In this document: positions 40-10,735 of the stretch, piece after piece
Position numbering within the stretch: the first letter of the stretch is position 1
Layout of the letters: each line of letters opens with the position of its first letter
The notes under the pieces: generated by a model
Databases searched by the model: none
What the model saw: only the letters and a program-made list of their open reading frames with translations
Told to the model about the DNA's origin: nothing
Program-made: the position numbers and the translations under genes
Source of the DNA: Bacteroidales bacterium
GTDB taxonomy: Bacteria > Bacteroidota > Bacteroidia > Bacteroidales > UBA10428
Reading direction: 5' to 3'
NCBI GenBank assembly: GCA_016926235.1
Contig: JAFGOZ010000560.1
Span: 1 to 10,834 of the forward strand
Length of the DNA: 10,834 nt

Positions 40-111
40 GCGGGAGTAGCTCAGTGGTAGAGCATCAGCTTCCCAAGCTGAGGGTCGAGGGTTCGAATCC
101 CTTTTCCCGCT
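40..111 (+). tRNA. tRNA-Gly (anticodon CCC)
   Basis: A full cloverleaf can be folded. The acceptor stem is GCGGGAG (40-46) with TTCCCGC (104-110), and the discriminator base is T111. The D arm is GCTC/GAGC. The anticodon stem TCAGC/GCTGA encloses the loop TTCCCAA, which gives anticodon CCC at 72-74 and so glycine (GGG codon). The T arm is GAGGG/CCCTT around TTCGAAT. CCA is not encoded. The gene is the integration target of the element to its right. Bases from about 69 onward are repeated with changes at 9447-9489, so the 3' half seen here was supplied by the element. Position 40 fits a start because it completes the seven-pair acceptor stem. Confidence 0.97.
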
Positions 112-130
112 CTTAACAATCAGGGACTTA
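69..130 (+). repeat. Left attachment site (tRNA 3' half plus start of terminator)
   Basis: This is a direct repeat of 9447-9508. By hand alignment 57 of 62 bases match, with no gaps. The first 19 bases (69-87 = 9447-9465) are identical and cover the anticodon loop, the 3' anticodon stem and the variable loop. The mismatches are at 88, 98, 102, 115 and 117. If the two T-arm versions are the element and chromosome versions, strand exchange must have occurred within 69-87. That is a usual crossover region for tRNA-targeting tyrosine integrases. Confidence 0.93.
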
Positions 131-380: not shown

Positions 381-785
381 ATGAATACTAATGAAATCAA
401 ACACGATGATAGGAGAGTATCAGAAAATACATTACTAAATGCAATGGCCGATTCTGACAAATATTCACACTTGCGCATAATATTAAGTCGCAAAGCAATT
501 AAAGGAACATTTCCACACTGCTTTCTGATGGTGACACCGTCAAGTTTTGGGATAGTAAAATTACTTGAACTTGGATATGATGACGATAAAATTATTCTTC
601 ATCTACAGGATGTTTACACAGAAATCACATCAAAGGTTTATCTTGACATTCATGACAAGCGATACAAATTTCTTTTGATTGAATGGCAGGATATTCTGGA
701 TATGGTTCTCCGTTACAAGTCTACTTTGGAAGGTACTGAGGAAATGTTGGAACTTGATGAAAACGAAGTTCATTTAAAAGTATAA
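381..785 (+). CDS. Unrecognised small protein A1 of the att-proximal gene pair
   Basis: This 134-aa protein is not one I recognise. It has no signal peptide or membrane segment. The N-terminal 40 residues are polar. A region rich in predicted beta strands follows (about residues 45-105), with the pattern IVKLLEL (58-64), IILHLQD (71-77) and W102. It ends acidic, with LELDE at 123-127. The flank gene A2 (9905-10330) shares IVKL at 63-66, a LxLxDL-type strand, a tryptophan at the same relative place and a C-terminal LELDE, so the two look like distant homologues. B1 follows 15 bp downstream and is probably cotranscribed. ATG at 381 is the first start after the upstream hairpin. Function is unknown; expression as a real gene is supported by the duplicated arrangement in the flank. 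Confidence 0.75.
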   Translation: MNTNEIKHDDRRVSENTLLNAMADSDKYSHLRIILSRKAIKGTFPHCFLMVTPSSFGIVKLLELGYDDDKIILHLQDVYTEITSKVYLDIHDKRYKFLLIEWQDILDMVLRYKSTLEGTEEMLELDENEVHLKV

Positions 786-800
786 ATATACTTGTATACT

Positions 801-1133
801 ATGCAAACAATAATTACTACTGGTTTCAGTACTTCAAACAAATTAAAATATTTACCAGATAATTCTGTAATTCTGGATATGCCTTTCATCTTAACTGAGC
901 ACAGACGATTAATTATTGGTATGCCTTACCTAAAATATGAAAATTGGCTTGCAGATTCGAAAATTCAAGCAGTACGACTTCTGAAGGTTTGGGACACTAA
1001 GAATATTGCTTACCTACAGATTCGTGATTTAAAATCAACCAAGGCCGATATATTATCATATAATTTGGAATATATTGGAGACTATTGGCTTTGGAGTCTT
1101 AGTTCTCTTGAATACCTTACAAAAAATTTGTAA
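801..1133 (+). CDS. Unrecognised small protein B1 of the att-proximal gene pair
   Basis: This protein has 110 aa from the ATG at 801. A TTG at 792 would add three residues, but the ATG makes it exactly as long as its homologue B2 (10333-10665). The two align without gaps over the first 91 residues, and about 40 of 110 positions are identical by hand alignment. The conserved core is SxxLDxPxILT (22-32), MPYLK (41-45), a strand ending in RL (59-60), and DxWxWSL (94-100). It has no signal peptide or transmembrane helix and no recognised catalytic motif. The stretch 57-105 also resembles the core of A1 (xVKLLxx..., LQD, a late W), so A and B may be ancient paralogues. It follows A1 closely in one transcription unit. 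Function is unknown. Confidence 0.8.
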   Translation: MQTIITTGFSTSNKLKYLPDNSVILDMPFILTEHRRLIIGMPYLKYENWLADSKIQAVRLLKVWDTKNIAYLQIRDLKSTKADILSYNLEYIGDYWLWSLSSLEYLTKNL

Positions 1134-1338
1134 TTTGTTCTGCTATCAATTTCTTTTTTGGTCGTACAGAGTGACAGTATTAATTGTTTTGTTAAACACT
1201 ATTTAATAACTTTGAAATAATCTTAAAAACAAACCTGATTTGAATAAATATTAAAGAACTTTTAAATATTTGTTGAAATAACATAACAGGCTTATAATCA
1301 TTTTAATAAAATATTGGTGAACTTGTAAAGTGAAGATT

Positions 1339-1719
1339 ATGAAAATATATGTGTATATAGCCTTACTTTTTTTCAGTCTGTCATTATGTGGGTGTTATTC
1401 ATATCAAGGTGTTTCACAACAAACTGTTTCACAACCAAGTGTTTCAGAACAAGAATCTCAAAAACAACAGGCAGAGGAAATCAAAAAAGCGATGGATTCT
1501 TGGATTGGTACTCACAAATCTAAATTAATCCAGCAGGTGGGCCCCCCTACAAGATATGCATCTGATGGTCAAGGTGGAGAAATATTAATCTATGAGACCT
1601 CAAGAAGTATCGGGATGACGGCTTATGGCACCTATATGCAGAGAACACTTATTGACTATAGGGAAGTGTTTGCTAATTCTAATGGAATAATTTATCACTG
1701 GAGAACAGGAACAAGATGA
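1339..1719 (+). CDS. Exported lipoprotein, cargo gene
   Basis: From the ATG at 1339 this is a 126-aa protein. GTG at 1330 is in frame and possible, but it would put extra residues before a compact signal sequence. A hydrophobic stretch (YIALLFFSLSL) leads to the lipobox LCGC, which predicts lipidation of the second cysteine. A Q/S-rich linker follows, made of three tandem 15-bp units (VSQQT, VSQPS, VSEQE), then a short helix and a globular end with WIGTHKSKLIQQVGPPT and a DGQGGEIL turn. That W-x-G...L-x-x-x-x-GPPT pattern is common in small bacterial lipoproteins and vaguely resembles the SmpA/OmlA type. It probably sits in the periplasm or outer membrane. It is the first of four exported cargo proteins. 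Confidence 0.8.
   Translation: MKIYVYIALLFFSLSLCGCYSYQGVSQQTVSQPSVSEQESQKQQAEEIKKAMDSWIGTHKSKLIQQVGPPTRYASDGQGGEILIYETSRSIGMTAYGTYMQRTLIDYREVFANSNGIIYHWRTGTR
1411..1455 (+). repeat. Three tandem 15-bp repeats in the lipoprotein linker
   Basis: Units GTTTCACAACAAACT (1411-1425), GTTTCACAACCAAGT (1426-1440) and GTTTCAGAACAAGAA (1441-1455) lie head to tail and in frame. Each encodes a five-residue unit beginning VS. Unit length is a multiple of three, so gain or loss of a unit by slippage would change only the linker length. Confidence 0.85.
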
Positions 1720-1801
1720 TTTAATTAATAAAATAGTAATTCATTTCACACTAAATTTCTGCATACTATATATTTAAATTAGATGTCCTAAATCATTATA
1801 T

Positions 1802-2377
1802 ATGAATAGATTAATAATCATTTTAATGTTGATAAGTTTTAAGTCTTACGGCCAAAATTGTAGTGATTTAAATCTATCCATCACCCCTGATTATTCTTAT
1901 ACAAATGAAACCCATGATTTTTCGCTTCCATTTAATGAAGGTTGGAAAATTATGCTTGAAAACCAAAAAGCCATTATTGTGAGTCTCACTGACCCAATGC
2001 AATTTGCAAGTGCATCAGTGATGTTAAATCAAAATGGATATCCAATACCTTCAGCACATTCAATAAATGACCAAATGGTAAGAGAACTTGCAAATATGGT
2101 AGGTAGCCGTATAGGAAATGATTTCAAAATATTAACAACAAAAAAATCATACATAAAAAATATAAAAGTTAATATTATTGAGTATGAATATCTTATTAAG
2201 AATCTTGACGATGAGTATCAAATGGCTGGTATTATGTTTCAAATCGTTAAGAAACAGAACTATACTTTTGTGTGTATGTTTAATTGTTTAAAATCTCTGA
2301 AAACATGTTATATACCTTTCTTCACGAATGTGATGAAACAGGCTTATTTTGGTCAGGAGTGGTATTCTTTAAATTGA
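1802..2377 (+). CDS. Secreted protein of unknown function, cargo gene
   Basis: This 191-aa protein has a clear N-terminal signal peptide (MNRLIIILMLISFKSYGQ), likely cut after the YGQ around residue 18. The mature part begins with an acidic and polar segment and then has an FSLPFNEGWKI block. A gentle alternation of strands and helices continues to the end. This layout recalls DUF1795/PsbP-like periplasmic proteins, but the resemblance is weak. Mature cysteines occur near the N-terminus (NCSDL) and in a CMFNC...TC cluster, which could form disulphides in the periplasm. It lies 82 bp after the lipoprotein on the same strand and may be in its operon. It converges with the gene at 2450-2956. Confidence 0.75.
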   Translation: MNRLIIILMLISFKSYGQNCSDLNLSITPDYSYTNETHDFSLPFNEGWKIMLENQKAIIVSLTDPMQFASASVMLNQNGYPIPSAHSINDQMVRELANMVGSRIGNDFKILTTKKSYIKNIKVNIIEYEYLIKNLDDEYQMAGIMFQIVKKQNYTFVCMFNCLKSLKTCYIPFFTNVMKQAYFGQEWYSLN

Positions 2378-2398
2378 GTTTAAAGTGAATCATATTTG

Positions 2399-2414
2399 TT
2401 GTAACTTTTTACAA
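2399..2414. terminator. Weak AT-rich hairpin between convergent genes
   Basis: TTGTAA (2399-2404), a CTTT loop and TTACAA (2409-2414) form a perfect six-pair stem in the 72-bp gap between two convergent genes. The position suits a shared terminator, but the stem is AT-rich and no T run follows on either strand, so the call is weak. Confidence 0.3.
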
Positions 2415-2449
2415 TCCAACATCCCTTTAACTACTTCTATATTTGATAC

Positions 2450-2956
2450 TTAATTAACTTTGACCCGCTCTGCTTTAAGTGTTTCATGATATCGACCCTC
2501 TTTGCTTTGTCTGCTTAATATAAACGTATAATTATATCCTTCAAATGAAAATCCATAAACTCCTGCACCATCAGAATTCGTGCGTATGTAGTATTTCTCT
2601 AATTCTGCTAATAAAGGACGATAACCAGATGAACTTGCTGGGCCATGCCATAATTCCACAAACTTATTTCCACATTTTTTTAAAGCATCAAAGTATTCAT
2701 CCATAGATAGTACTTGTCCTGCAAAGGCGACAATACACCAATCGTTCTCAGTCACGGTTGAAAAACCATTTAGTTTACTGTACTTTTCAAATTCAAAATC
2801 AGTCAGGCTTAAAATTGCAATGTAATTTTGCACGGTTCTTACTAAATCTTTTTTGATGTCACTATTTGAAGAATATTCAACTTTTATCGGATTTGTCTGT
2901 GCCATAGATGGTTCTATAGTCAACATCATAAATAAAAAAAAGATAAATCGTTCCAT
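2450..2956 (-). CDS. Secreted protein of unknown function, cargo gene
   Basis: The open frame extends to 3034, but the ATG at 2956 gives a 168-aa protein starting directly with a signal peptide (MERFIFFLFMMLTIEPSMAQ, likely cut after MAQ at residue 20). The 26 residues before it would bury the signal, so I chose 2956. The mature protein is mixed alpha/beta with two cysteines. It has an ELWHGPASSSGYRPLL segment and a glycine-rich DGAGVYGFSFEGYNYTF strand pair. I do not recognise the family. It lies 64 bp downstream of the gene at 3021-3455 on the same strand, and the two are probably cotranscribed as a pair of small exported proteins. Confidence 0.7.
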   Translation of the reverse strand: MERFIFFLFMMLTIEPSMAQTNPIKVEYSSNSDIKKDLVRTVQNYIAILSLTDFEFEKYSKLNGFSTVTENDWCIVAFAGQVLSMDEYFDALKKCGNKFVELWHGPASSSGYRPLLAELEKYYIRTNSDGAGVYGFSFEGYNYTFILSRQSKEGRYHETLKAERVKVN

Positions 2957-3020
2957 ACTATTTAGTTTAATTATGATATCATTCCACAAATCAAATATTA
3001 AAATTGGCCGACAAGTGCCA

Positions 3021-3455
3021 TTAAAATTCAACAATACTTCCCAGATAACTAAATTTATATTGTAAATAAAAAACAGTTACACTCACAGGTACTATATCTA
3101 TTAGTTTCTCATAGAATCGCAATCCAACAATGCAATCATTTCCTTTTTTATCCACGGCTATATACATGTTTTCAATGTACTTGCCAAAAATTTCTACCGT
3201 ACCAGAATCTCTCTCATGAAGTTTTAGCAATTTAAATGTATCTTCAGCCTTATTTGCTATTTTTACTGTATTATTTATCGAATCAATCTTTATGGTAAGT
3301 TCATTATCAGTAAAGTTCTTCCATTCATTCCATTTGGAAGTAGTATCATTGTAAGTGGCATCACAACTATTCTTCGTATAAATAATTATTAATTGTGCCT
3401 TTATGCTAAAAGACACAAACAATAATCCAATGAGAATTATTGCTGATTTTTTCAT
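3021..3455 (-). CDS. Small secreted protein of unknown function, cargo gene
   Basis: The open frame starts at 3479, but the ATG at 3455 begins a classic signal peptide (MKKSAIILIGLLFVSFSIKAQ, cut after KAQ). A perfect Bacteroidota -7 box lies only 22 bp upstream of 3455 and overlaps the longer start, which rules that start against. The resulting protein has 144 aa. The mature part holds a charged KNSCDATYND start, several predicted beta strands (ELTIKIDSINNTVKIA, GTVEIFGKYI) and two cysteines. It has a hydrophobic but interrupted C-terminus (VPVSVTVFYLQYKF). No family was recognised. It is the first gene of a leftward pair with 2450-2956. Confidence 0.7.
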   Translation of the reverse strand: MKKSAIILIGLLFVSFSIKAQLIIIYTKNSCDATYNDTTSKWNEWKNFTDNELTIKIDSINNTVKIANKAEDTFKLLKLHERDSGTVEIFGKYIENMYIAVDKKGNDCIVGLRFYEKLIDIVPVSVTVFYLQYKFSYLGSIVEF

Positions 3456-3476
3456 GACCTGTATTCTGGTTTCAAT

Positions 3477-3484
3477 CAAAGATA
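3477..3484 (-). promoter_or_regulatory. -7 promoter box for the leftward secreted-protein pair
   Basis: The minus strand reads TATCTTTG, an exact match to the Bacteroidota -7 consensus TAnnTTTG, 22 bp before the ATG at 3455. No clear -33 TTTG lies at the usual 19-21 bp distance. The box gives a short leader and supports the start chosen for the gene. Confidence 0.5.
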
Positions 3485-3777
3485 CAAATTTATTAGCACT
3501 TTTTATTCGTTTCTGATTTGATTCAGCCTATTATAATTACCATCCTATTTTAATCTTGTGGATGGTCAAAAGAGTATGCAGTATCGGCAACATATTTTCC
3601 CAAAATAACTCAAAGAATGTTTTCAGGAACATAGCGAAAAAGTAGGCAGAAAATAATAATATCGTTATAGGTAGAATATAAAAATTAAATACATACTATC
3701 CGTTTGTTCATTTAATTAATAAAAGTTTGGTTAATTTGCTACAAATAATTACTTAGTATGGATTAAAATATAAGAAA

Positions 3778-3990
3778 ATGGAAAAATCTGATTTAAGAGC
3801 AGCATATCATAGATTAACATTATCAACCAGTGATACCTACCCTCAGGAAGAACGATTACTATGTTTAAAAGAATGCTTTGATGAACTGGCAAAAAGAGAA
3901 AATTTTCTATCACAGAATGAAGTCACAGAAATCACAGAGTTTGTTCAATCTGTATTAACACGACATGTTAAAGATATCCTGAAAGGATAA
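3778..3990 (+). CDS. Small helical protein of unknown function
   Basis: This is a 70-aa soluble protein, highly charged and predicted to be almost wholly helical. It has two stretches suited to paired helices (about 3-38 and 47-69) separated by NFLSQNE. No HTH motif or signal peptide can be seen. It stands alone: about 320 bp of non-coding DNA lies before it and about 120 bp after it, and it faces the serine recombinase convergently. Its size and charge would suit a small regulator or accessory protein, but nothing in the sequence proves that. The coding call rests on its length, a plain ATG and normal amino-acid composition. Confidence 0.55.
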   Translation: MEKSDLRAAYHRLTLSTSDTYPQEERLLCLKECFDELAKRENFLSQNEVTEITEFVQSVLTRHVKDILKG

Positions 3991-4109
3991 TGTTGCTCCA
4001 ACGAATCATTTTAACGGTGTTATTTCAAATCTTACCGACTTTATCCAATAGTTAGTGGATTATTACATTCATAAGTTAAATCCTTTTATTTCGGCATCTC
4101 TGAGGGTAC

Positions 4110-4754
4110 CTAAGCAGAATTCTTTTCAATAACCAACTTTCTCAACTTTGTTAGTGTATTTTTATTGGTATTAGTTATTTTTTTTATGTGGTGATAACTG
4201 TAACCTTTTTTCAGCATCTTTATCTCTTCATCATATTGTTCAAACATTTTTTCATTACTTTTCCGAAAACCAATTTTACGGCCAACTATGCCACCCTGTA
4301 ACCGATAGTTCTGGTATCCGCTTGATAACCGATTCTCAATGTTTCTACGCTCCATCCGTGATATTTCAGCCAGAATTGTAATAAGAAACTGACTCATCGG
4401 GTTAATTTCCCTTTCAGGAGTCAGCGTTTCAACATTGTAATTCTGGATAAATAGCGATATTTTATTCTGGTTCAAAATCTCGATGGCTTCCAATATTTGT
4501 AGCGTGTCTCTGCCTAATCTTGACAGTTCAGTAACCATAACCTTATCTATATTGTTGGTATCCACAAATTTCACCATTTTCATTAATTCAGGCCGCTCAT
4601 TATTTTTCTTAGAACCAGATATTTTTTCAGCAAAAACACTGACTATTTCATAGTTCCTTGAATTCGCCAGCATTGTTAAATCATTAATTTGTCTGTCATA
4701 GTTCTGGCGGTCATTTGATGATGAAACACGGCAAAATAATACCACTCTTTCCAT
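4110..4754 (-). CDS. Serine recombinase (resolvase/invertase family)
   Basis: This 214-aa protein has the full small-serine-recombinase layout. The catalytic domain begins with VVLFCRVSSS, where S11 after RV is the expected nucleophile, followed by the DRQ motif (20-22). ELSRLGRD (76-83) carries the conserved active-site S and arginines. A long helix (ISRMERRNIENRLSSG, 131-146) forms the dimer and DNA-entry region. A C-terminal helix-turn-helix (about 180-206, GYSYHHIKKITNTNKNTL) binds DNA. No residue appears missing. Roles known for the family are resolution of dimers or cointegrates and inversion of DNA segments; which applies here is not shown, as I found no obvious paired inverted site next to it. 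It lies 11 bp after the short ORF at 4766-5011 and may be cotranscribed with it. Confidence 0.95.
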   Translation of the reverse strand: MERVVLFCRVSSSNDRQNYDRQINDLTMLANSRNYEIVSVFAEKISGSKKNNERPELMKMVKFVDTNNIDKVMVTELSRLGRDTLQILEAIEILNQNKISLFIQNYNVETLTPEREINPMSQFLITILAEISRMERRNIENRLSSGYQNYRLQGGIVGRKIGFRKSNEKMFEQYDEEIKMLKKGYSYHHIKKITNTNKNTLTKLRKLVIEKNSA

Positions 4755-4765
4755 ATTGAAATATT

Positions 4766-5011
4766 TTAGTTACAACAAAATTGGTAATAAGGATAATTCG
4801 GGTCATAAAAAACATACCATTCAGGATAGGAAATAATGTGAACCGATTCAACTTTGCTGTGATTCATAAAGACAATCACCAGATTGTTTTCCATGCCTTC
4901 GGAGCATAATGACATGCTGGATTGTAGAATTCGGTATTGTTTCTTCTTCATACTAATGTTTGATAAGACTGACATAAAAGTAATTATATTGATTATATTT
5001 ACCAAATTCAT
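4766..5011 (-). CDS. Possible small protein upstream of the serine recombinase
   Basis: This 81-aa open frame ends 11 bp before the recombinase start on the same strand. In-frame ATGs at 4975 and 4951 would give 69 or 61 aa. The N-terminal 20 residues of the longest version are hydrophobic but have no basic start, so it is a poor signal peptide. The body reads like a folded small domain, with strand NNLVIVFMNHS, then VHIISYPEWYVFYDP and an aromatic tail ending FCCN. No family was recognised. Translational coupling with the recombinase is plausible. It could also be a chance frame; the tight spacing is the main support. Confidence 0.4.
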   Translation of the reverse strand: MNLVNIINIITFMSVLSNISMKKKQYRILQSSMSLCSEGMENNLVIVFMNHSKVESVHIISYPEWYVFYDPNYPYYQFCCN

Positions 5012-5092
5012 AAGTAAATATTTTTAATATTACTACTGAACTAAGGTGAGTTTCTTAATTTTTCATACTTTAGCATTACATAAAATTAAACC

Positions 5093-5341
5093 ATGACATC
5101 TTCCGACAAAAACAGGCAGGTCATTCATTTGCAAATTATTGCTACTGATGAACACTTCTACTATGGGAGCATTACGGCAATGTTTGAACATTTTAGCCGT
5201 GAGCAATTGGGTGTGGCCCATCAAACCTTGTATAATACTTGGAAAGACGAACCTTATGTAACCGAATTGGCTGTCATTCGAAAGGGTCGGCTTGTACAGA
5301 AAAAGCAACAGAGTCTTAAATCTAAAAACAGTAATGGTTAG
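5093..5341 (+). CDS. Small conserved-looking protein of mobile elements, unknown function
   Basis: This is an 82-aa soluble protein. The pattern HLQIIATDEHFYYGSITAMF, then EQLGVAHQTLYN and a late VIRKGRLVQKK, is of a kind I associate with short hypothetical proteins in Bacteroidota mobile elements. A basic C-terminus (QKKQQSLKSKN) suggests nucleic-acid contact. An overlapping minus-strand frame (5063-5308) is less protein-like. A possible -7 box (TACTTTAG, 5066-5073) lies 19 bp before the ATG. The gene is divergent from the recombinase group and convergent with the replication initiator. The family recollection is from memory and unverified; function is unknown. Confidence 0.65.
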   Translation: MTSSDKNRQVIHLQIIATDEHFYYGSITAMFEHFSREQLGVAHQTLYNTWKDEPYVTELAVIRKGRLVQKKQQSLKSKNSNG

Positions 5342-5407
5342 TGAGATACACGTGGTGGGCGTACAAAACTATGAAATCACTCTAAAAATGTCTTAAATAG
5401 AACATTA

Positions 5408-5470
5408 GCGGGCATATTCCGCAAAAATAAGTGTATGTTTAAATGGGGTTTTGGTACATATAAAGTGCCA
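5408..5470. promoter_or_regulatory. Two hairpins in the gap after the replication initiator gene
   Basis: The 157-bp gap between convergent genes holds GCGG/CCGC (5408-5411 with 5419-5422, 7-nt loop) and TGGTAC/GTGCCA (5452-5457 with 5465-5470, one wobble, 7-nt loop). Neither is followed by a T run, so they are poor intrinsic terminators. Their place beside a Rep-like gene makes a replication-origin role conceivable but unproven. Confidence 0.3.
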
Positions 5471-5498
5471 TTATAGTACACAAGCAAATATTTTTGAA

Positions 5499-6488
5499 TC
5501 AATCCGCTTTTAACTCCAATAATTTTTGTTTAATTCCATTCATGACCTGTAAATTTTTATTCGGAATTGGTTGTACGTTAATTAATTTGGACAGTTTTGC
5601 CCTGTATTTTCTTTTATTCGTATTTGGTGAAAGTGTACTATTGAGCACCAAATCAATCTGAGATAGGTCATTATTACATGCTTTTATTAGCAATGCATCC
5701 TTCAGTTCAGAAAGTTTGCGGTACGATAATAGCGATTGTATTTCATTAAGTATAGGTTCCGATTCATCCGATACGTCAAATACTGAATTAAACAATGCAA
5801 ATAACGGATTAGCGGTTGAATTCAGTGCAACCAAAAGGCTATTCCCATCTATTTCCAGTAGTTCCTTTAACTGTGTTACTGTACGCACATTGGCTTCAAT
5901 ACGGTACTTTCCATTGAAATAAGCCAACAGATTGTACTTATCATCAAGCAAATCCAAGTACTCCACATTGGTTACTTTTTGCATTTCTTTGTACTTATCA
6001 TAGATGGAAAGCCTTATTTTTCTGTTCTGAGTTTTCACCAGTTTTGTTACTGTATATCCACAATTTGCGTATTTCTGAACCTGATACTTATTGAGGCTCT
6101 TCAGGCATATTTTAATGGCCAGAAGGTCTGGCATAACTATACCGTCCAAGTCTGTAGTTATATCGGCTGATATCAAATCACTTGCAGTAATAACACCATC
6201 AATATTCAATTTACAAATACCGCTTTCATTCATCCTTTCAAAACAATATCTGATGTTGTTCTTATTGATAAGTTCAGGATAACGGTCACCAAGTACCTTT
6301 GCAGAAATCTCAATTACACATCTGTCATCAGCAAGACTTTTATTTATATAGAGATTGAAAGGTTTTATTTGTTTATAGCGTATTTCATTTTGAAGGCCAT
6401 TTTTTATAACATGAGTACATGCATCAGAATTCATAAATTCTATGTTTTTATTATTAGTTACTATTTTTATCCTGTCGAACTTAACCAT
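5499..6488 (-). CDS. Putative replication initiator, phage/plasmid gpII-like
   Basis: This 329-aa protein resembles the replication proteins of filamentous phages and some Bacteroidota plasmids (gene II/X type). What I see: MVKFDRIKIV at the start; CVIEISAKVLGDRYPELIN (57-75) and an ADITTDL motif (108-114), which mirror the ExSxKxL and DxTxD segments of that group; IYDKYKEMQK (162-171), with tyrosines placed where a nicking residue could be; and YRIEANVRTVTQLKELL (195-211), matching the RxEvxlrs...L signature. The C-terminal third is helical and basic. The family nicks one strand at its origin to start rolling-circle replication. It is 35 bp downstream of the HTH gene in the same direction, consistent with an excise-then-replicate operon. 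Assignment is from motif memory only. Confidence 0.7.
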   Translation of the reverse strand: MVKFDRIKIVTNNKNIEFMNSDACTHVIKNGLQNEIRYKQIKPFNLYINKSLADDRCVIEISAKVLGDRYPELINKNNIRYCFERMNESGICKLNIDGVITASDLISADITTDLDGIVMPDLLAIKICLKSLNKYQVQKYANCGYTVTKLVKTQNRKIRLSIYDKYKEMQKVTNVEYLDLLDDKYNLLAYFNGKYRIEANVRTVTQLKELLEIDGNSLLVALNSTANPLFALFNSVFDVSDESEPILNEIQSLLSYRKLSELKDALLIKACNNDLSQIDLVLNSTLSPNTNKRKYRAKLSKLINVQPIPNKNLQVMNGIKQKLLELKAD

Positions 6489-6523
6489 GTACCCAAAAAA
6501 GTCGAAATTGTTTCTTTGAGAAG

Positions 6524-6877
6524 TTACTTCTTGCCACTACTGCCTTCAGCCACTTCCTGTAATTGTTTTAATGTTTTACGTCTGTCAGAGCGAATCCAGT
6601 CATCAATTTCCCGTGCATCAAAGAATAACCTACCGATTTTTTTGTAATGCGGGATTCTTTTCTGATGTGTTAGATTATATATTGCACCCTCTGATATGCC
6701 TAATTTTATGCTGACTTCCTTTACATTCAACAGTTCTTTATTCACCACTTCTTCAATGTCGGGTTTGGTCTGTGCAGAACTGTTTAGAATGTGGTCTTTA
6801 ATGAATGCCACATCCTGCATAAGTCGTGAGACGGCTTCTGGAAGTTTTTCAAACGTTATGTTATTGAATTCTGTCAT
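6524..6877 (-). CDS. Excisionase-type helix-turn-helix protein
   Basis: The frame is open to 6925, but ATG at 6877 gives 117 aa. It also lies just downstream of a -7-like box (6898-6905) that the longer start would overlap. The N-terminal half (8-35) is helical. Residues 49-96 form a winged-helix domain of the HTH_17/MerR-like excisionase kind: LLNVKEVSIKLGISEGAIYN, then RIPHYKKIGRLFFDAREIDDWI. The IPHYKxGxxxxFxxxEIxxW ending is diagnostic of the type. Such proteins bend att DNA and direct tyrosine integrases to excision, or regulate replication genes. It is first in an operon with the putative initiator (35 bp gap). The basic tail (RSDRRK, GKK) would suit DNA binding. Confidence 0.88.
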   Translation of the reverse strand: MTEFNNITFEKLPEAVSRLMQDVAFIKDHILNSSAQTKPDIEEVVNKELLNVKEVSIKLGISEGAIYNLTHQKRIPHYKKIGRLFFDAREIDDWIRSDRRKTLKQLQEVAEGSSGKK

Positions 6878-6897
6878 ATTTTCACATAAATACAACG

Positions 6898-6939
6898 TAA
6901 AGATAGACAGATAGATACTCGCCATCCGACCGAAGGTGG
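6898..6939 (-). promoter_or_regulatory. Promoter and possible operator of the HTH-replication operon
   Basis: The minus strand reads TATCTTTA at 6905-6898, matching TAnnTTTG except for the last base, 21 bp upstream of the ATG at 6877. A short inverted repeat (CCATC 6922-6926 with GGTGG 6935-6939, one wobble, 8-nt loop) lies where the -33 region should be, and no good TTTG is present. An activator or repressor site there would fit, but this is inference. Confidence 0.4.
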
Positions 6940-7048
6940 TTACTTACGGTTGTTGTTGGATTGGCTCAATTCAATGCCAAATGATGGAATGAGAAGAAGA
7001 TAGGAAAATGAAATAATTGGGTGAAAAGAAAAAATATTGAACTTTCGG

Positions 7049-8023
7049 TTATTTTTTATGATTTAACTTTCCACCAACATAACTGTTGATGGAGTCATCA
7101 ATTATAGTGTCTATTTTATCGTGATATTGTTTATAATGACCATCATGGTATATATTTTTTACTTTAAAGGTTTGGCCATACTTATTTTCAAAAAAACACT
7201 TCAACGCAATTTGATTGTTTGACGGCCTTACACTGTATTTAATAAAAACATTTGTTAATTCTTTTATAAAATAACTCAGATGGCTATACTTTTTTAACCA
7301 GATGATTGGTCTTGGATTCTTGGATAAAAATACCTGCTTAAATTCTGGAAGAGTACAATCAATATAACCATGCTCTTTAAGGTTTTTATGAATGTTGGAT
7401 AATATATTGTGACACTGTTTTGATACGGAAGGTTCGATTTTAAAATAATACTTTGTAGTGGCTGGAACCTTTATGGCTTCTTCATCATCGATTGATTCAC
7501 TTTTGATTATGGCTTCTTTCCCACTGCTGTTTGCTCTTATCAAAATGGTTACATCTTTAAGCATCTGATTTATGAAATACAACTGAATCGAAGAACAAGA
7601 ATAAAAGAACTTATATGCCCATCTTGTGTACTTTTCCTGTTTTTCAATAACGTAATCTTTCTTTGGGTTTGGTATTACAAAATACTGTGAATGATTCTTC
7701 CATTCTCTGCGTAATGAAGAATGGGTAAATCTATATTTGGTACGCCTATAAAGGGTAAATATTCTCGCAAGTACAGGAATAATTGTTTCATCGGTGGTTC
7801 CAGTGGTTGAACATTGCTTAATAAACGTGTTCAGGTACTTAATGAAATTATCATAGTAAAGTTCAATTTGTTGTTGGAAACCCTCTTCACTTGTGTAGTA
7901 TTTAAAACCTAAATATATCGATTCCTCAACAGGATTAGTGCACAGAACGGGATGTTCATCCAATGCACAAATTATTGAATTTAATTGGTCTTCAGGAGAA
8001 GAATCATATATCGGTTTGCTCAT
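7049..8023 (-). CDS. Unknown 324-aa protein cotranscribed with the integrase
   Basis: Its ATG lies 5 bp after the integrase stop, so the two form an operon. No signal peptide or membrane helix is present. The N-terminal half is helical and rich in aromatic and basic residues (RREWKN, KYTRWAYKFFYS). The C-terminal part (about 203-262) reads L-x-x-I-x-x-x-L-x-x-x-GYID...F-x-x-x-F...PIIWLKKYSHLSYFIKEL. That order loosely recalls the C-terminal part of RteC, the CTnDOT regulator of excision. The resemblance is by eye and could be superficial. A role as an accessory or regulator of integration and excision is inferred from the operon. The gene is followed by about 120 bp without coding sequence or a clear terminator. 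Confidence 0.7.
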   Translation of the reverse strand: MSKPIYDSSPEDQLNSIICALDEHPVLCTNPVEESIYLGFKYYTSEEGFQQQIELYYDNFIKYLNTFIKQCSTTGTTDETIIPVLARIFTLYRRTKYRFTHSSLRREWKNHSQYFVIPNPKKDYVIEKQEKYTRWAYKFFYSCSSIQLYFINQMLKDVTILIRANSSGKEAIIKSESIDDEEAIKVPATTKYYFKIEPSVSKQCHNILSNIHKNLKEHGYIDCTLPEFKQVFLSKNPRPIIWLKKYSHLSYFIKELTNVFIKYSVRPSNNQIALKCFFENKYGQTFKVKNIYHDGHYKQYHDKIDTIIDDSINSYVGGKLNHKK

Positions 8024-8028
8024 ACAAA

Positions 8029-9279
8029 TTAAATTTCCGCCAAAAATCCTGCTGTTTTTTCAAGCGTGTCAAGATTAAAAGAATCTAAATAATTTTGTGT
8101 CGTTTCGGTTGATGTATGGCCCAACGCTTCCGAGATAACATCAACGGATACACCACACCTTTTCAAATATGTCGAAAAACTATGTCTTGCCCAAATAGTA
8201 GTAATTACAAAATCAAACTTCAATTCTACCGAAATCTTTTTCATGTGTTTGTTAATATTTCTGGTAAATGACATTATCATTCCCCGTTCTTCTTTCGGTG
8301 TTATACCGTGTTTTAGAATTACGAAAATATATGCTTCTGATGTTTTGTCCTGATTTCCAATTTCATTTATTATCCCTTTAATTTCATCTGATAAAAATAT
8401 TTGAATTGGCCTAACATTACTATTTGTATTTTCAGTCTTAGCACGTGTTATTGTGATGGTATTGCCTGAAATGTTTTTATTCTTTAATAAGCATATATCC
8501 TTTGTATTTAATCCATTAGCATAAAATGAAAACCACCATAATAACCATGCTTTTCTTTGAGCGTACGACTTTGGTCTGAAATTTTTCAGGAGCCTGAGTT
8601 CTTCAATAGTCAATGCTCTCTTGTTGCTTTCACCTTTCTTGATTTTATATTTCTTATCATTTCTTGTCTTTGAGAAAGGATATTTATCAGCATTTACCAA
8701 TTTCTCTGCGATTGCAATATTGTATATAGTTCGCAGATTACGAAGGTTCATTGCAATATATGTAACAGAATGGCCTGATTTCGCCATTTTTCTTTCATAT
8801 TCTTCAAGAAATGTAACTGTAACTTCATCAAACGTCAGCCTTTTCCTGATACCTTGAAATGTTTTTAATGCACTTTTATAAATTGTGGCCGTACCTATAT
8901 TACCTGAATCTGTGAATTCTTTTATTTGCCTATTGAATATAGCGTAAACATCTTTGCTGGCCAAATTACGTTTATTTGTATCGAAATAAGCAGACTTAAA
9001 TTTTTCAAAATCAAAATCACCCTCTATCTTTTTAAGTGCCTGTTGGAATTTATCACCAATAAAATAATCCAGTTTAATCTTTGACTCTTTCAATGTATTA
9101 TCACGGAGTTTTGGTGCATTAAGTTTCTTCCATTCATCTTCTGTAAAACTGTATGGCAGACCATATCGCTTCTTTTCACCAGTAAAGTAAACCGTTAATT
9201 TAACTGGATGCTTCCCCGTTTTTTTTAATTTTGTACGGGTGTCAAGGAAAAGATTTGCTGTTGGATTGGTAATTGCCAT
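8029..9279 (-). CDS. int: Tyrosine recombinase (integrase), Bacteroidota type
   Basis: This 416-aa protein has the usual three parts. The N-terminal arm-binding domain (LFLDTRTKLKKTGKHPVKLTVYF start) spans 5-90, the SAM-like core-binding domain about 105-200, and the catalytic domain 220-416. Catalytic residues by position: K281 (RAKT), R365 (WARHSF), H388 (LGHTS) and nucleophile Y397 (TTQNYLDSF). The first catalytic arginine is replaced by N258 (GLNTKDI), and the residue three before R365 is isoleucine rather than histidine. Loss of the first arginine is known in Bacteroidota integrases such as IntDOT. The gene lies beside the right att site and starts an operon with the 324-aa gene. It carries out site-specific integration into the tRNA-Gly gene, and excision with a helper. 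Confidence 0.96.
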   Translation of the reverse strand: MAITNPTANLFLDTRTKLKKTGKHPVKLTVYFTGEKKRYGLPYSFTEDEWKKLNAPKLRDNTLKESKIKLDYFIGDKFQQALKKIEGDFDFEKFKSAYFDTNKRNLASKDVYAIFNRQIKEFTDSGNIGTATIYKSALKTFQGIRKRLTFDEVTVTFLEEYERKMAKSGHSVTYIAMNLRNLRTIYNIAIAEKLVNADKYPFSKTRNDKKYKIKKGESNKRALTIEELRLLKNFRPKSYAQRKAWLLWWFSFYANGLNTKDICLLKNKNISGNTITITRAKTENTNSNVRPIQIFLSDEIKGIINEIGNQDKTSEAYIFVILKHGITPKEERGMIMSFTRNINKHMKKISVELKFDFVITTIWARHSFSTYLKRCGVSVDVISEALGHTSTETTQNYLDSFNLDTLEKTAGFLAEI

Positions 9280-9296
9280 TATTTATACCATTAATA

Positions 9297-9317
9297 TTTG
9301 CACCAAGATTTGCACCA
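9297..9317 (+). repeat. Paired repeats TTTGCACCA, candidate integrase arm sites (right)
   Basis: TTTGCACCA is at 9297-9305 and 9309-9317, 12 bp start to start, the same sequence, spacing and orientation as the pair at 160-180. In the excised circle the two pairs would flank the 19-bp core, about 73 bp on one side and 130 bp on the other. The pair also lies in the 5' leader of the integrase gene, so integrase binding might lower its own transcription. Confidence 0.65.
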
Positions 9318-9348
9318 TAAATGTATTAAAAGCGATGATAACATCAAA
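9318..9348 (-). promoter_or_regulatory. Promoter of the integrase operon
   Basis: On the minus strand TTTG (9348-9345) is followed after 19 bp by TACATTTA (9325-9318). This matches the Bacteroidota -33 TTTG and -7 TAnnTTTG boxes with one mismatch in the last position. Transcription would start within the TTTGCACCA pair directly downstream, giving a leader of about 30 nt before the ATG at 9279. Confidence 0.55.
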
Positions 9349-9423
9349 AACACGATTAGATTGGACTTCAGTTAATACATTGATATTTAATACTACTATG
9401 AAATAACTAAAAAAGATTGGAAA

Positions 9424-9446
9424 GCGGGTGAGGACTCAAAGGGACA
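9424..9446 (+). pseudogene. Degenerate tRNA 5'-half-like sequence at the right junction
   Basis: Directly before the right core, GCGGG (9424-9428) is complementary to CCCGC (9484-9488), and a CTCA (9435-9438) lies where the D arm would be. The segment is 23 nt against 29 in the true gene, and the rest of the acceptor and D stems does not pair. It may be a remnant of a captured or duplicated tRNA gene, or a chance match. Confidence 0.3.
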
Positions 9447-9508
9447 CTTCCCAAGCTGAGGGTCGTGGGTTCGAACCCCATTTCCCGCTCTTGAAAATCA
9501 GGGACTTA
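9447..9508 (+). repeat. Right attachment site: displaced tRNA-Gly 3' half
   Basis: This is a direct repeat of 69-130. It contains the anticodon loop, variable loop, T arm (GTGGG/CCCAT around TTCGAAC) and acceptor 3' strand of the tRNA, but no functional 5' half. It is most simply the original chromosomal 3' part displaced when the element integrated. Compared with the active gene, T9466 and A9480 replace A88 and T102, which keeps the T-stem pair. Confidence 0.9.
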
Positions 9509-9536
9509 GAACAATAGACTTCTAAGTCCCTTTTTT
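9500..9536 (+). terminator. Former tRNA terminator
   Basis: AGGGACTTAGAA (9500-9511) pairs perfectly with TTCTAAGTCCCT (9520-9531) over 12 pairs with an 8-nt loop and six Ts. It is the counterpart of the left terminator and is now cut off from a complete tRNA gene. It still can stop transcription leaving the element's right end. Confidence 0.85.
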
Positions 9537-9537
9537 A

Positions 9538-9558
9538 TTTGCAATAAAATTTGCAATA
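9538..9558 (+). repeat. Paired repeats TTTGCAATA outside the element
   Basis: TTTGCAATA occurs at 9538-9546 and 9550-9558, again 12 bp start to start, and exactly as far from the tRNA core (73 bp) as TTTGCACCA is on the left. These look like diverged arm sites of a second, related integrase. They lie in the 413-bp stretch 9492-9904 without genes, which otherwise holds the terminator, plain AT-rich DNA (about 9560-9770) and a nested hairpin. Confidence 0.55.
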
Positions 9559-9771
9559 TAAAGTGATGCTCGTCACATTTCAGGTTTCCCGAATATTTTT
9601 TTAAAAAAAAATTCTACCTGATAGTAATCAAAAAACATTGTAACTTTCTGTATTTTAATTTTTTACGGAATTTCTCAGTCTTAACTTTCAAAGTAATCCA
9701 ATAGGTTCTCACATTTCGAAAAAAAATTTTAAAATTTTTCTCCCAGTATTTATTTATAGAGAAGCACTTCT

Positions 9772-9866
9772 ATCAGGAAATAGCTTAACCGTCTCACCCT
9801 CTGCCATATATGGAGGCGTACCCTTGGCGGAGGGGTATACGGGGGGTTACGGTGAATATACCTGAT
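9772..9866 (+). promoter_or_regulatory. GC-rich nested hairpin ahead of gene A2
   Basis: Three nested helices are visible: ATCAGG (9772-9777) with CCTGAT (9861-9866); ACCGT (9788-9792) with ACGGT (9849-9853); and CCCTCTGCC (9797-9805) with GGCGGAGGG (9826-9834, one wobble). An alternative pairing of GTACCC (9818-9823) with GGGTAT (9833-9838) is possible, so it could switch. The sequence CATTACATA follows both this hairpin (9875-9883) and the one before A1 (338-346). A leader RNA or palindromic DNA element are both open; no known class was recognised. Confidence 0.55.
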
Positions 9867-9904
9867 TATGTGTACATTACATAAATTGAAATGATTGTAC
9901 GAAT

Positions 9905-10330
9905 ATGAGACTTCAAGACTTTTTCCCATATGATACCATAATTCTGGGTTTACTTCAGGTTTATCATGGTGTTGGAACGAACTCCTTCTTCATCAACCAC
10001 CCCTGCACGATGGTTAAAGACCGTATTATTACCACAGGCGAGACTTATTTCTTATTCAGTTACAATGGAAATCAATTATTAGCATCCAGCATAGTGAAAC
10101 TCATCGATACCTTTTATTATAATGACCATGTTTATCTGCTGCTCAATGATTTACTCACTGATGAAGTTATGCTCCGCAATCATCCTTTAAATAAGGGCGA
10201 AAACAGATGCCAATGGAAACTATTTGATGTTGAAACGCTCAGAAATATTCTGTTTGTAAAAGATGAACCACATTCTCCTGAAAGAACCACCCATATCAAT
10301 AACGATGAACTTCTTGAACTTGATGAATAA
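9905..10330 (+). CDS. Unrecognised small protein A2 of the att-proximal gene pair
   Basis: This 141-aa protein resembles A1 in its core and ending: SIVKLIDTF (62-70) against GIVKLLELG, VYLLLNDL (76-83) against IILHLQDV, a tryptophan at 104, and LLELDE as the last residues. The N-terminal part differs (MRLQDFFPYDTIILGLLQVY) and is more hydrophobic, but it lacks a basic start and is not a convincing signal peptide. The core is rich in predicted beta strands. B2 starts two bases after the stop, so the two are translationally coupled. It sits behind a tRNA remnant, terminator and hairpin just as A1 does, which is strong contextual support for homology. Function is unknown. Confidence 0.75.
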   Translation: MRLQDFFPYDTIILGLLQVYHGVGTNSFFINHPCTMVKDRIITTGETYFLFSYNGNQLLASSIVKLIDTFYYNDHVYLLLNDLLTDEVMLRNHPLNKGENRCQWKLFDVETLRNILFVKDEPHSPERTTHINNDELLELDE

Positions 10331-10332
10331 CC

Positions 10333-10665
10333 ATGAATAATAATACTTATATCAACAGTTATGGAAGAAAGGTATTAGAATATGTTCCGCCAGTCTCTAT
10401 TATGCTTGACTTGCCACACATCCTGACCCGTGACAAAATATTAAGGTTAAATATGCCTTATTTGAAACTGGAAAAGAAAATTGCAGGTAATGATATCGCT
10501 GCAATCAGGTTAATTGATTTTGAAGATGAAGACGGGATTGTTACGTTATATGTGCAGGAACTGGAAAGTAAAAGGACATATTACCTTTCTGCTAATATGG
10601 AGTACGATGATATGTGGTTCTGGTCGCTGACAGACCTTCCTACCTTATATAACCTATCCAAATAA
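10333..10665 (+). CDS. Unrecognised small protein B2 of the att-proximal gene pair
   Basis: This protein has 110 aa, the same length as B1. Shared residues include S22, L25-D26, P28, ILT 30-32, MPYLK 41-45, RL 59-60, L72, L77, NxEY 88-91 and a DxWxWSL ending (93-99). About 40 of 110 positions are identical by hand alignment, and only one gap is needed, near residue 92. It has no export signal or known catalytic motif. The fold is probably small and beta-rich, with a C-terminal helix. The start codon is two bases after the A2 stop, so a two-gene operon is clear. A GC-rich hairpin and a strong terminator follow. Confidence 0.8.
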   Translation: MNNNTYINSYGRKVLEYVPPVSIMLDLPHILTRDKILRLNMPYLKLEKKIAGNDIAAIRLIDFEDEDGIVTLYVQELESKRTYYLSANMEYDDMWFWSLTDLPTLYNLSK

Positions 10666-10679
10666 ACGGTCGTTTATTA

Positions 10680-10701
10680 GTACCCCTCTGTGCAGGGGAG
10701 G
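10680..10701. repeat. GC-rich REP-like hairpin after gene B2
   Basis: CCCCT (10683-10687) pairs with AGGGG (10694-10698) around a 6-nt loop, preceded by GTAC. The series GTACCCC, short spacer, AGGGG also occurs before A2 (9818-9835) and, on the minus strand, before A1 (311-297), so three related palindromes border the A/B genes. Confidence 0.4.
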
Positions 10702-10715
10702 TTTGTATAAAAAAC

Positions 10716-10735
10716 AAGGGGTTTCGCAACCCCTT
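10716..10735. terminator. Bidirectional terminator between B2 and a leftward gene
   Basis: AAGGGGTT (10716-10723), a TCGC loop and AACCCCTT (10728-10735) form a perfect eight-pair stem. On the minus strand it is followed by GTTTTTT, a good T run for the leftward gene ending at 10766. On the plus strand only AATTATTT follows, so termination of B2 is weaker. Confidence 0.8.

Follow-up and report, generated by a model that had tools for sequence, protein, structure and literature searches.

The window, by which we mean the whole 10,834-nt stretch of Bacteroidales DNA analysed here, carries an integrated mobile element of about 9.4 kb and two pairs of small genes, A1-B1 and A2-B2, which are the subject of this study. 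The element is recognised by a tyrosine integrase and by flanking repeats at an intact tRNA-Gly gene with anticodon CCC (40–112, forward strand; ARAGORN and Rfam RF00005), the target of integration. The left attachment repeat D1 (69–133) and the right attachment repeat (9447–9511), both on the forward strand, each comprise the tRNA 3′ half and its flank. These direct repeats are 65 nt each with 91% identity, and the tRNA-Gly 3′ end is matched in the right repeat at 91.7%, 414 nt before A2. The integrase gene lies at 8029–9279 on the reverse strand (Pfam PF00589, 2.1e-12, with PF13102 and PF17293), and library scans identified a helix-turn-helix (HTH_17) or excisionase-like protein at 6524–6925, also on the reverse strand. 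A1-B1 (381–1133) adjoins the intact tRNA and A2-B2 (9905–10665) lies outside the right repeat. The repeat positions therefore place A1-B1 inside the 9.4-kb element and A2-B2 beyond its right end, in agreement with an earlier sequence-only reading of this DNA.

All four genes of the pairs are open frames on the forward strand. A1 (381–785) encodes a type A small protein of 134 aa with an MLELDE motif near the C-terminus, and A2 (9905–10330) encodes a type C small protein of 141 aa, for which an AlphaFold2 (AF2) model suggests a small beta barrel and a disordered tail, NDELLELDE. B1 (801–1133) and B2 (10333–10665) both match the type B profile. The sequence-only reading had described B1 and B2 as related proteins of 110 aa each. 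Their relatedness is clear (E 3e-22, 42% identity across 92 aa) and B2 has this length, but the longest B1 frame opens at TTG 792 and gives 110 aa only if the ATG at 801 is the start. Directly 3′ of B2, at 10680–10735, are GC-rich inverted repeats that are terminator-like by appearance.

A1 and A2 had been presented as the same gene in two copies, which our comparisons do not bear out. BLASTP aligned them weakly, at 27% identity across 83 aa (E 0.009). We then scored them against leave-out profiles from which the window proteins had been removed, with 119 rows for type A and 85 rows for type C after removal of 34 rows at least 50% identical to A2. A1 scored 77.9 bits against type A and 16.3 bits against type C, A2 scored 103.1 bits against type C and 2.1 bits against type A, and the type B profile without window rows scored 141.1 bits for B1 and 184.0 bits for B2. 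The profiles place A1 and A2 in paralogous subfamilies, type A and type C, of one superfamily, and only the B members in the same family.

Several further features were observed within the element. Besides the tyrosine integrase, it carries a serine resolvase-type recombinase at 4110–4754 (reverse strand; PF00239, 1.6e-31). A 329-aa protein at 5499–6488 (reverse strand) shows weak, sub-cut-off similarity to the phage replication protein G2P (PF05144, 0.025), and the HTH protein at 6524–6925 matches the anti-phage HTH model MADS1 at 35.9 bits, below the cut-off of 80. An ATTTGCA-type motif is repeated by both attachment repeats (159–184, 9296–9321 and 9537–9562); these are possible arm sites of the integrase.

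Protein types and array anatomy

Profile–profile comparison related type B to type C (E 7.4e-16) and type A to type C (E 2.5e-8). On the basis of these profiles, we take types A, B and C to form a single superfamily, whose members are small, beta-rich and for the most part acidic. A fourth type, D, occurs in some arrays, and no relation of D to B or C was found. Database relatives at E ≤0.01 numbered 101 for the B query, 198 for the A query and 159 for the C query; the A query also contained two C-type rows, so the A-query and C-query sets may overlap. Among the matches listed (120 each of the 198 and 159 for A and C), the mean net charge was −11.4 for A (n=115) and −5.7 for C (n=119), compared with −2.5 for B (n=95) and −2.2 for D (n=11).

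The sequence-only reading did not recognise the A/B family, and the library searches agree. None of A1, B1, A2 and B2 scored above the curated cut-off in Pfam or NCBIfam, these proteins gave weak matches only in PHROGs and PADLOC, and the type A, B and C profiles found nothing at E ≤1 among PDB sequences. A PADLOC scan of the four proteins with one further C, one A and one D gave two weak matches only (E 0.02 and 6.4e-4), which do not assign these proteins to known defence families. The AF2 model of A2 is confident in its core, where the block means are 81–95 at residues 21–90 and 101–120, and 73 at residues 91–100, with a disordered tail from residue 121. The B2 model has a predicted local distance difference test score of 68.8.

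A C-terminal LLE-type tail is present once in 23 of 41 gene groups, twice in none and absent from 18, many of which are fragments or single D genes. It sits on A in all five C-A-D arrays and on C in all five C-D arrays. The same rule applied to database proteins found the tail in 79/119 A and 75/120 C (among the matches listed) and in 3/101 B proteins. At two loci, a fusion adds a second N-terminal domain to B (L004, 9548–10324, 258 aa; L047, 7956–8801, 281 aa).

We compared the gene orders of the fetched loci (numbered L001 onwards), which include A-B, C-B, C-A-D, C-D, A-D, C alone and fragments; no gene-level match was obtained in L040. In the typical module, the shared leader precedes one or two genes of types C and A, and these are often followed by B or the unrelated D. 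In L002, the A stop overlaps the B start by 4 nt. Thirty-two arrays, the window's included, have usable upstream sequence and were evaluated for their surroundings; these count the fragments L037, L046 and L096, and leave out L005, L033, L049 and L102 (fragments or doubtful matches), L006 and L048 (short upstream sequence) and L149, found later.

In the samples searched, few genomes beyond a narrow group carry these genes. In the genome collection B was found at six loci, five in records named Bacteroidota, Bacteroidetes or Bacteroidales and the sixth, L001, in a record named as a Chloroflexi metagenome-assembled genome. The array, leader and B of L001 closely match the Bacteroidota locus L003, and the L001 contig is possibly misbinned. 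Within the taxonomic family of genome G002, at E 1e-3, B was present in 13, A in 9 and C in 15 of 117 genomes, and by our own count A, B or C was present in 20/117, some as fragments. Wider samples, each including its own centre, gave B in 1/395 genomes of the class, C in 2/393 of the order (one weak) and B in 3/104 of the family of G003 (one weak). B2 had no match in plasmids and phages and B had none in viral contigs, where type C was found once (L149).

Leaders and genomic surroundings

Leader 1 of the window, on the forward strand, has a GC-rich part at 261–324 and a putatively promoter-like AGTATTTAT motif at 355–363. Leader 2 has a AGTATTTAT motif at 9745–9753, a GC-rich part ending in GGGGTTACGGTG at 9788–9854 and a TGTACATTA motif at 9871–9879, all on the forward strand. 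Across loci, 27 of 39 leaders, counting fragments, have AGTATTTAT no more than 330 nt ahead of the first gene. By eye, most leaders combine a GC-rich stretch (GCACCCC ... GGATACC or GGTTACGG) with a TGTACATTA-like motif, in two orders. A pattern for the GC-rich stretch plus TGTACATTA-like motif matched seven places in the 117 genomes, of which six are array leaders and the seventh is in a genome where none of A, B and C was matched. Three places matched the pattern in reverse.

We considered and rejected a structured or catalytic leader RNA, as 26 leaders fold no better than dinucleotide shuffles (mean z −0.6), with four below z −1.5 and a consensus fold energy of −4.2. Rfam recovered only the tRNA in the window. 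Given this and the lack of excess folding, we regard the sequence before the arrays as a conserved promoter or leader. The idea that the A1 and L045 leaders are inverted found no support when all leaders were compared by eye. A 17-nt leader pattern matched nine stretches in viral contigs, none of which (0/9 loci) had an A, B, C or D match, and these stretches are therefore taken as unrelated.

The sequence-only reading had proposed a conserved gene pair kept beside a tRNA at the ends of elements. A tyrosine recombinase lies directly upstream and co-oriented, at 196–873 nt, in 11 of the 32 arrays (L003, L004, L036, L038, L039, L042, L047, L090, L091, L092 and L099). Those of L036, L091 and L099 were identified by profile alignment to other integrases (the L099 integrase has a Pfam E of 0.0019, below cut-off), and in L091 the gene near the integrase is D, with A beyond an inserted gene. 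Seven arrays have a tRNA or tRNA 3′ fragment within 0.7 kb upstream, five found by ARAGORN and two as 3′ fragments: the two window arrays, L034 (Pro), L041 and L100 (His), L044 (a 22-nt tRNA-His 3′ fragment) and L093 (Gly CCC). Together, 18/32 arrays have an integrase within 0.9 kb or a tRNA or 3′ fragment within 0.7 kb upstream, although these sites are not all independent, since several represent one site shared by related species (one by L041, L044 and L100, another by L038 and L042). As a control we used nikR loci of the same 117-genome group, where 28 of 30 members were retained and the other two are themselves array loci. The control gave an integrase in 0/28 and a tRNA or tmRNA within 1.4 kb (ARAGORN) in 3/28, one locus having merely 195 nt of upstream sequence. 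Therefore only the integrase link is clearly above background. Clustering at integration sites is thus retained from the sequence-only reading, with most arrays near a tRNA or integrase and no housekeeping family matched, but the tRNA link by itself is not, and a modular set takes the place of the one conserved pair.

One explanation of these surroundings is that the genes are passengers, a cargo family that piles up in integration hot spots where islands collect and that has no role tied to the element. The 14/32 arrays not close to an integrase or tRNA, the array fragments (L005, L006, L033, L037 and L096) and a tRNA link not clearly above the control would all fit. However, the 11/32 arrays that have a tyrosine integrase in the same orientation no more than 0.9 kb upstream, compared with 0/28 in the control, weigh against it, and the other integrase orientation is seen only at the second array of the window, across the attachment repeat. 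We consider the passenger explanation unlikely, but it is the strongest of the rivals.

Alternatively, the products may help or control the recombinase, as a directionality factor or repressor would, and so stay beside the integrase gene or attachment site. The directly upstream, co-oriented integrases and the attachment-proximal module of the window are in keeping with such an accessory role. Against it, the neighbouring tyrosine recombinases are divergent, falling in three profile groups (L004 and L047 share 22% identity), and one neighbour is a large serine recombinase. In addition, the element in the window encodes an excisionase-like protein itself, most modules come with a leader of their own, the A and C proteins are acidic and the same 14 arrays have no integrase or tRNA nearby. 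We regard a recombination accessory as rather improbable.

Two loci bear on the order of events in the window. In L093, which lacks the 9.4-kb element, a C-A-D array follows the tRNA-Gly(CCC) that the window also has; in L044, an array follows a 3′ fragment of tRNA-His and other DNA lies in front. Both fit the second window module being resident before the element landed. The viral contig L149 carries a C-D array whose neighbours are a large serine integrase and a gene fragment of the Mg-chelatase family (PF01078), which we take to be ComM/YifB-like. Two rearrangements were also observed. In L006 (388–3270), the B of an A-B array is truncated beside a gene pair that is IS21-like by appearance. 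Just upstream of the A-B array of L002, a DUF2400 gene has an inverted partial self-copy, as judged by eye (8226–8564 and 8545–9342).

Exchange of subunits and selection

Comparison of orthologous arrays, using identity profiles for six locus pairs, shows gene-by-gene mosaics at the sequence level, in which similar leaders precede different first genes. L041 and L044 are 97% identical across 563 nt to the start codon, after which identity is 71% and drops to 45–56% in C. L001 and L003 share flank and leader at 91% over 431 nt and B at 84% over 338 nt, and their first genes are C and A, respectively. Between L045 and L093, the leader is 82–86% identical, C 47–59% (inner windows), A 87–92% and D 62–71%. 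Between L042 and L038, the integrase is mostly 71–89% identical, C 41–51% and nikR 90–99%. The second module of the window compared with L001 gives 76–87% for C and 59–70% for B.

The ratio of nonsynonymous to synonymous substitution rates (dN/dS) was 0.08–0.38 in 22 of 23 estimable A, B, C and D pairs, not all of them independent. The outlier (0.76) is a 54-codon B fragment, and three further pairs had no estimable dS. These ratios suggest that the A, B, C and D genes are mostly under purifying selection. Such selection, the short and tightly coupled genes (as in the 4-nt A/B overlap of L002) and the position at element ends might suggest addiction, a toxin–antitoxin set that retains the island in the chromosome, but this is the least probable of the explanations we weighed, given the variable composition (single C, C-D, C-A-D, A-B, C-B), the membership of A, B and C in one superfamily instead of a toxin with an unrelated antitoxin, and the lack of any toxin or antitoxin family match for A1, B1, A2 and B2 (Pfam, NCBIfam and PADLOC) or D (Pfam and PADLOC).

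Proposed function

We tentatively favour a protein-binding conflict module, for defence or counter-defence, with exchangeable subunits, and rank it ahead of the passenger, recombination accessory and addiction explanations, in that order. Every step from anatomy to function is inferred. Our preference comes from the position of the arrays, the exchange of subunits, the acidity of the proteins and the defence families near arrays. PADLOC found such families at four of five loci: relatives of BrxL, PglZ, AbiTii and PD-T4-1 in L003, AbiEi/AbiEii in L004, a type I methyltransferase in L047 and a GmrSD/NsnA-like protein in L093. The neighbours of L001 gave an Mrr-like, sub-cut-off Pfam match only.

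Several observations weigh against a conflict module. The neighbours for the PADLOC scan were picked by eye at the five loci, with no systematic count, and no defence family scored above cut-off among the scanned proteins of the window element (Pfam and NCBIfam; the cargo lay outside the PADLOC scan, and frames 2450–3034 and 3021–3479 outside the element scan altogether). The direct profile–profile match of A to B is weak (E 0.0015, probability 16.8). The top fold matches are also weak and none is significant; they include SH3-like barrels (Tudor, chromobarrel and ribosomal protein barrels). B1 is basic (isoelectric point 8.8), B and D are just mildly acidic, and 14 of the 32 arrays have no integrase or tRNA close by. 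Several dS values exceed 1.5, and the mosaicism could arise from paralogue exchange without selection for specificity.

As a conflict module, the A, B, C and D proteins would form a small complex. The barrels of A and C would bind other proteins and not DNA, since they are acidic. The LLE-type tail would recruit one constant partner, which is a simplification, because D is unlike B and both are missing from some modules. Specificity would be set by the first subunit, the one that is exchanged. The module would serve conflict between mobile elements, as defence, exclusion or counter-defence, a setting in which exchange of the recognition subunit would be favoured. The 9.4-kb element of the window, bringing its own module, would have inserted at tRNA-Gly(CCC) in front of a resident module.

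We compared this arrangement with known systems. Integron cassette arrays also have a recombinase gene followed by exchangeable small genes; by gene layout, the only level compared, the arrays here differ in that their genes are paralogous and keep a largely fixed order, and in that their integrases lie upstream in the same orientation. ArdA and Ocr are anti-restriction proteins that are likewise small, acidic and carried by mobile elements. The modules here instead have several subunits and are beta-barrel-like and variable, and neither the ArdA nor the Ocr family turned up in the general library scans (Pfam, NCBIfam, PHROGs and PADLOC). In a 2022 study, mobile-element defence hotspots hold diverse defence systems at a site, with anti-phage activity shown, and one hotspot sits between cI and the integrase (PMC9122126). 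The hotspots resemble our arrays in being small loci (~1–5 kb) that lie between conserved genes of the element and change their content rapidly, whereas in our arrays it is paralogous subunits from a single superfamily that are exchanged, behind a leader that is conserved, and the system is known from sequence alone. Variable gene content beside conserved element genes was likewise found here, in the mosaics and in the arrays with an integrase neighbour.

More tentatively still, we suggest that the arrays may represent an undescribed conflict system of Bacteroidota integrative elements, in which a leader and a partner stay constant, acidic small-barrel recognition subunits are shuffled and the whole stays at the end where integration takes place. 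An element arriving there, as in the window or at tRNA-His in L044, would meet a resident module and could exchange subunits with it. If this is a conflict system, it would show how integrative elements of uncultured Bacteroidota contend for a common site, and it would offer a natural set of swapped recognition subunits for the mapping of specificity. Even as cargo, three families without a name in the scanned libraries now have a described anatomy, a leader in common and a known place in the genome.

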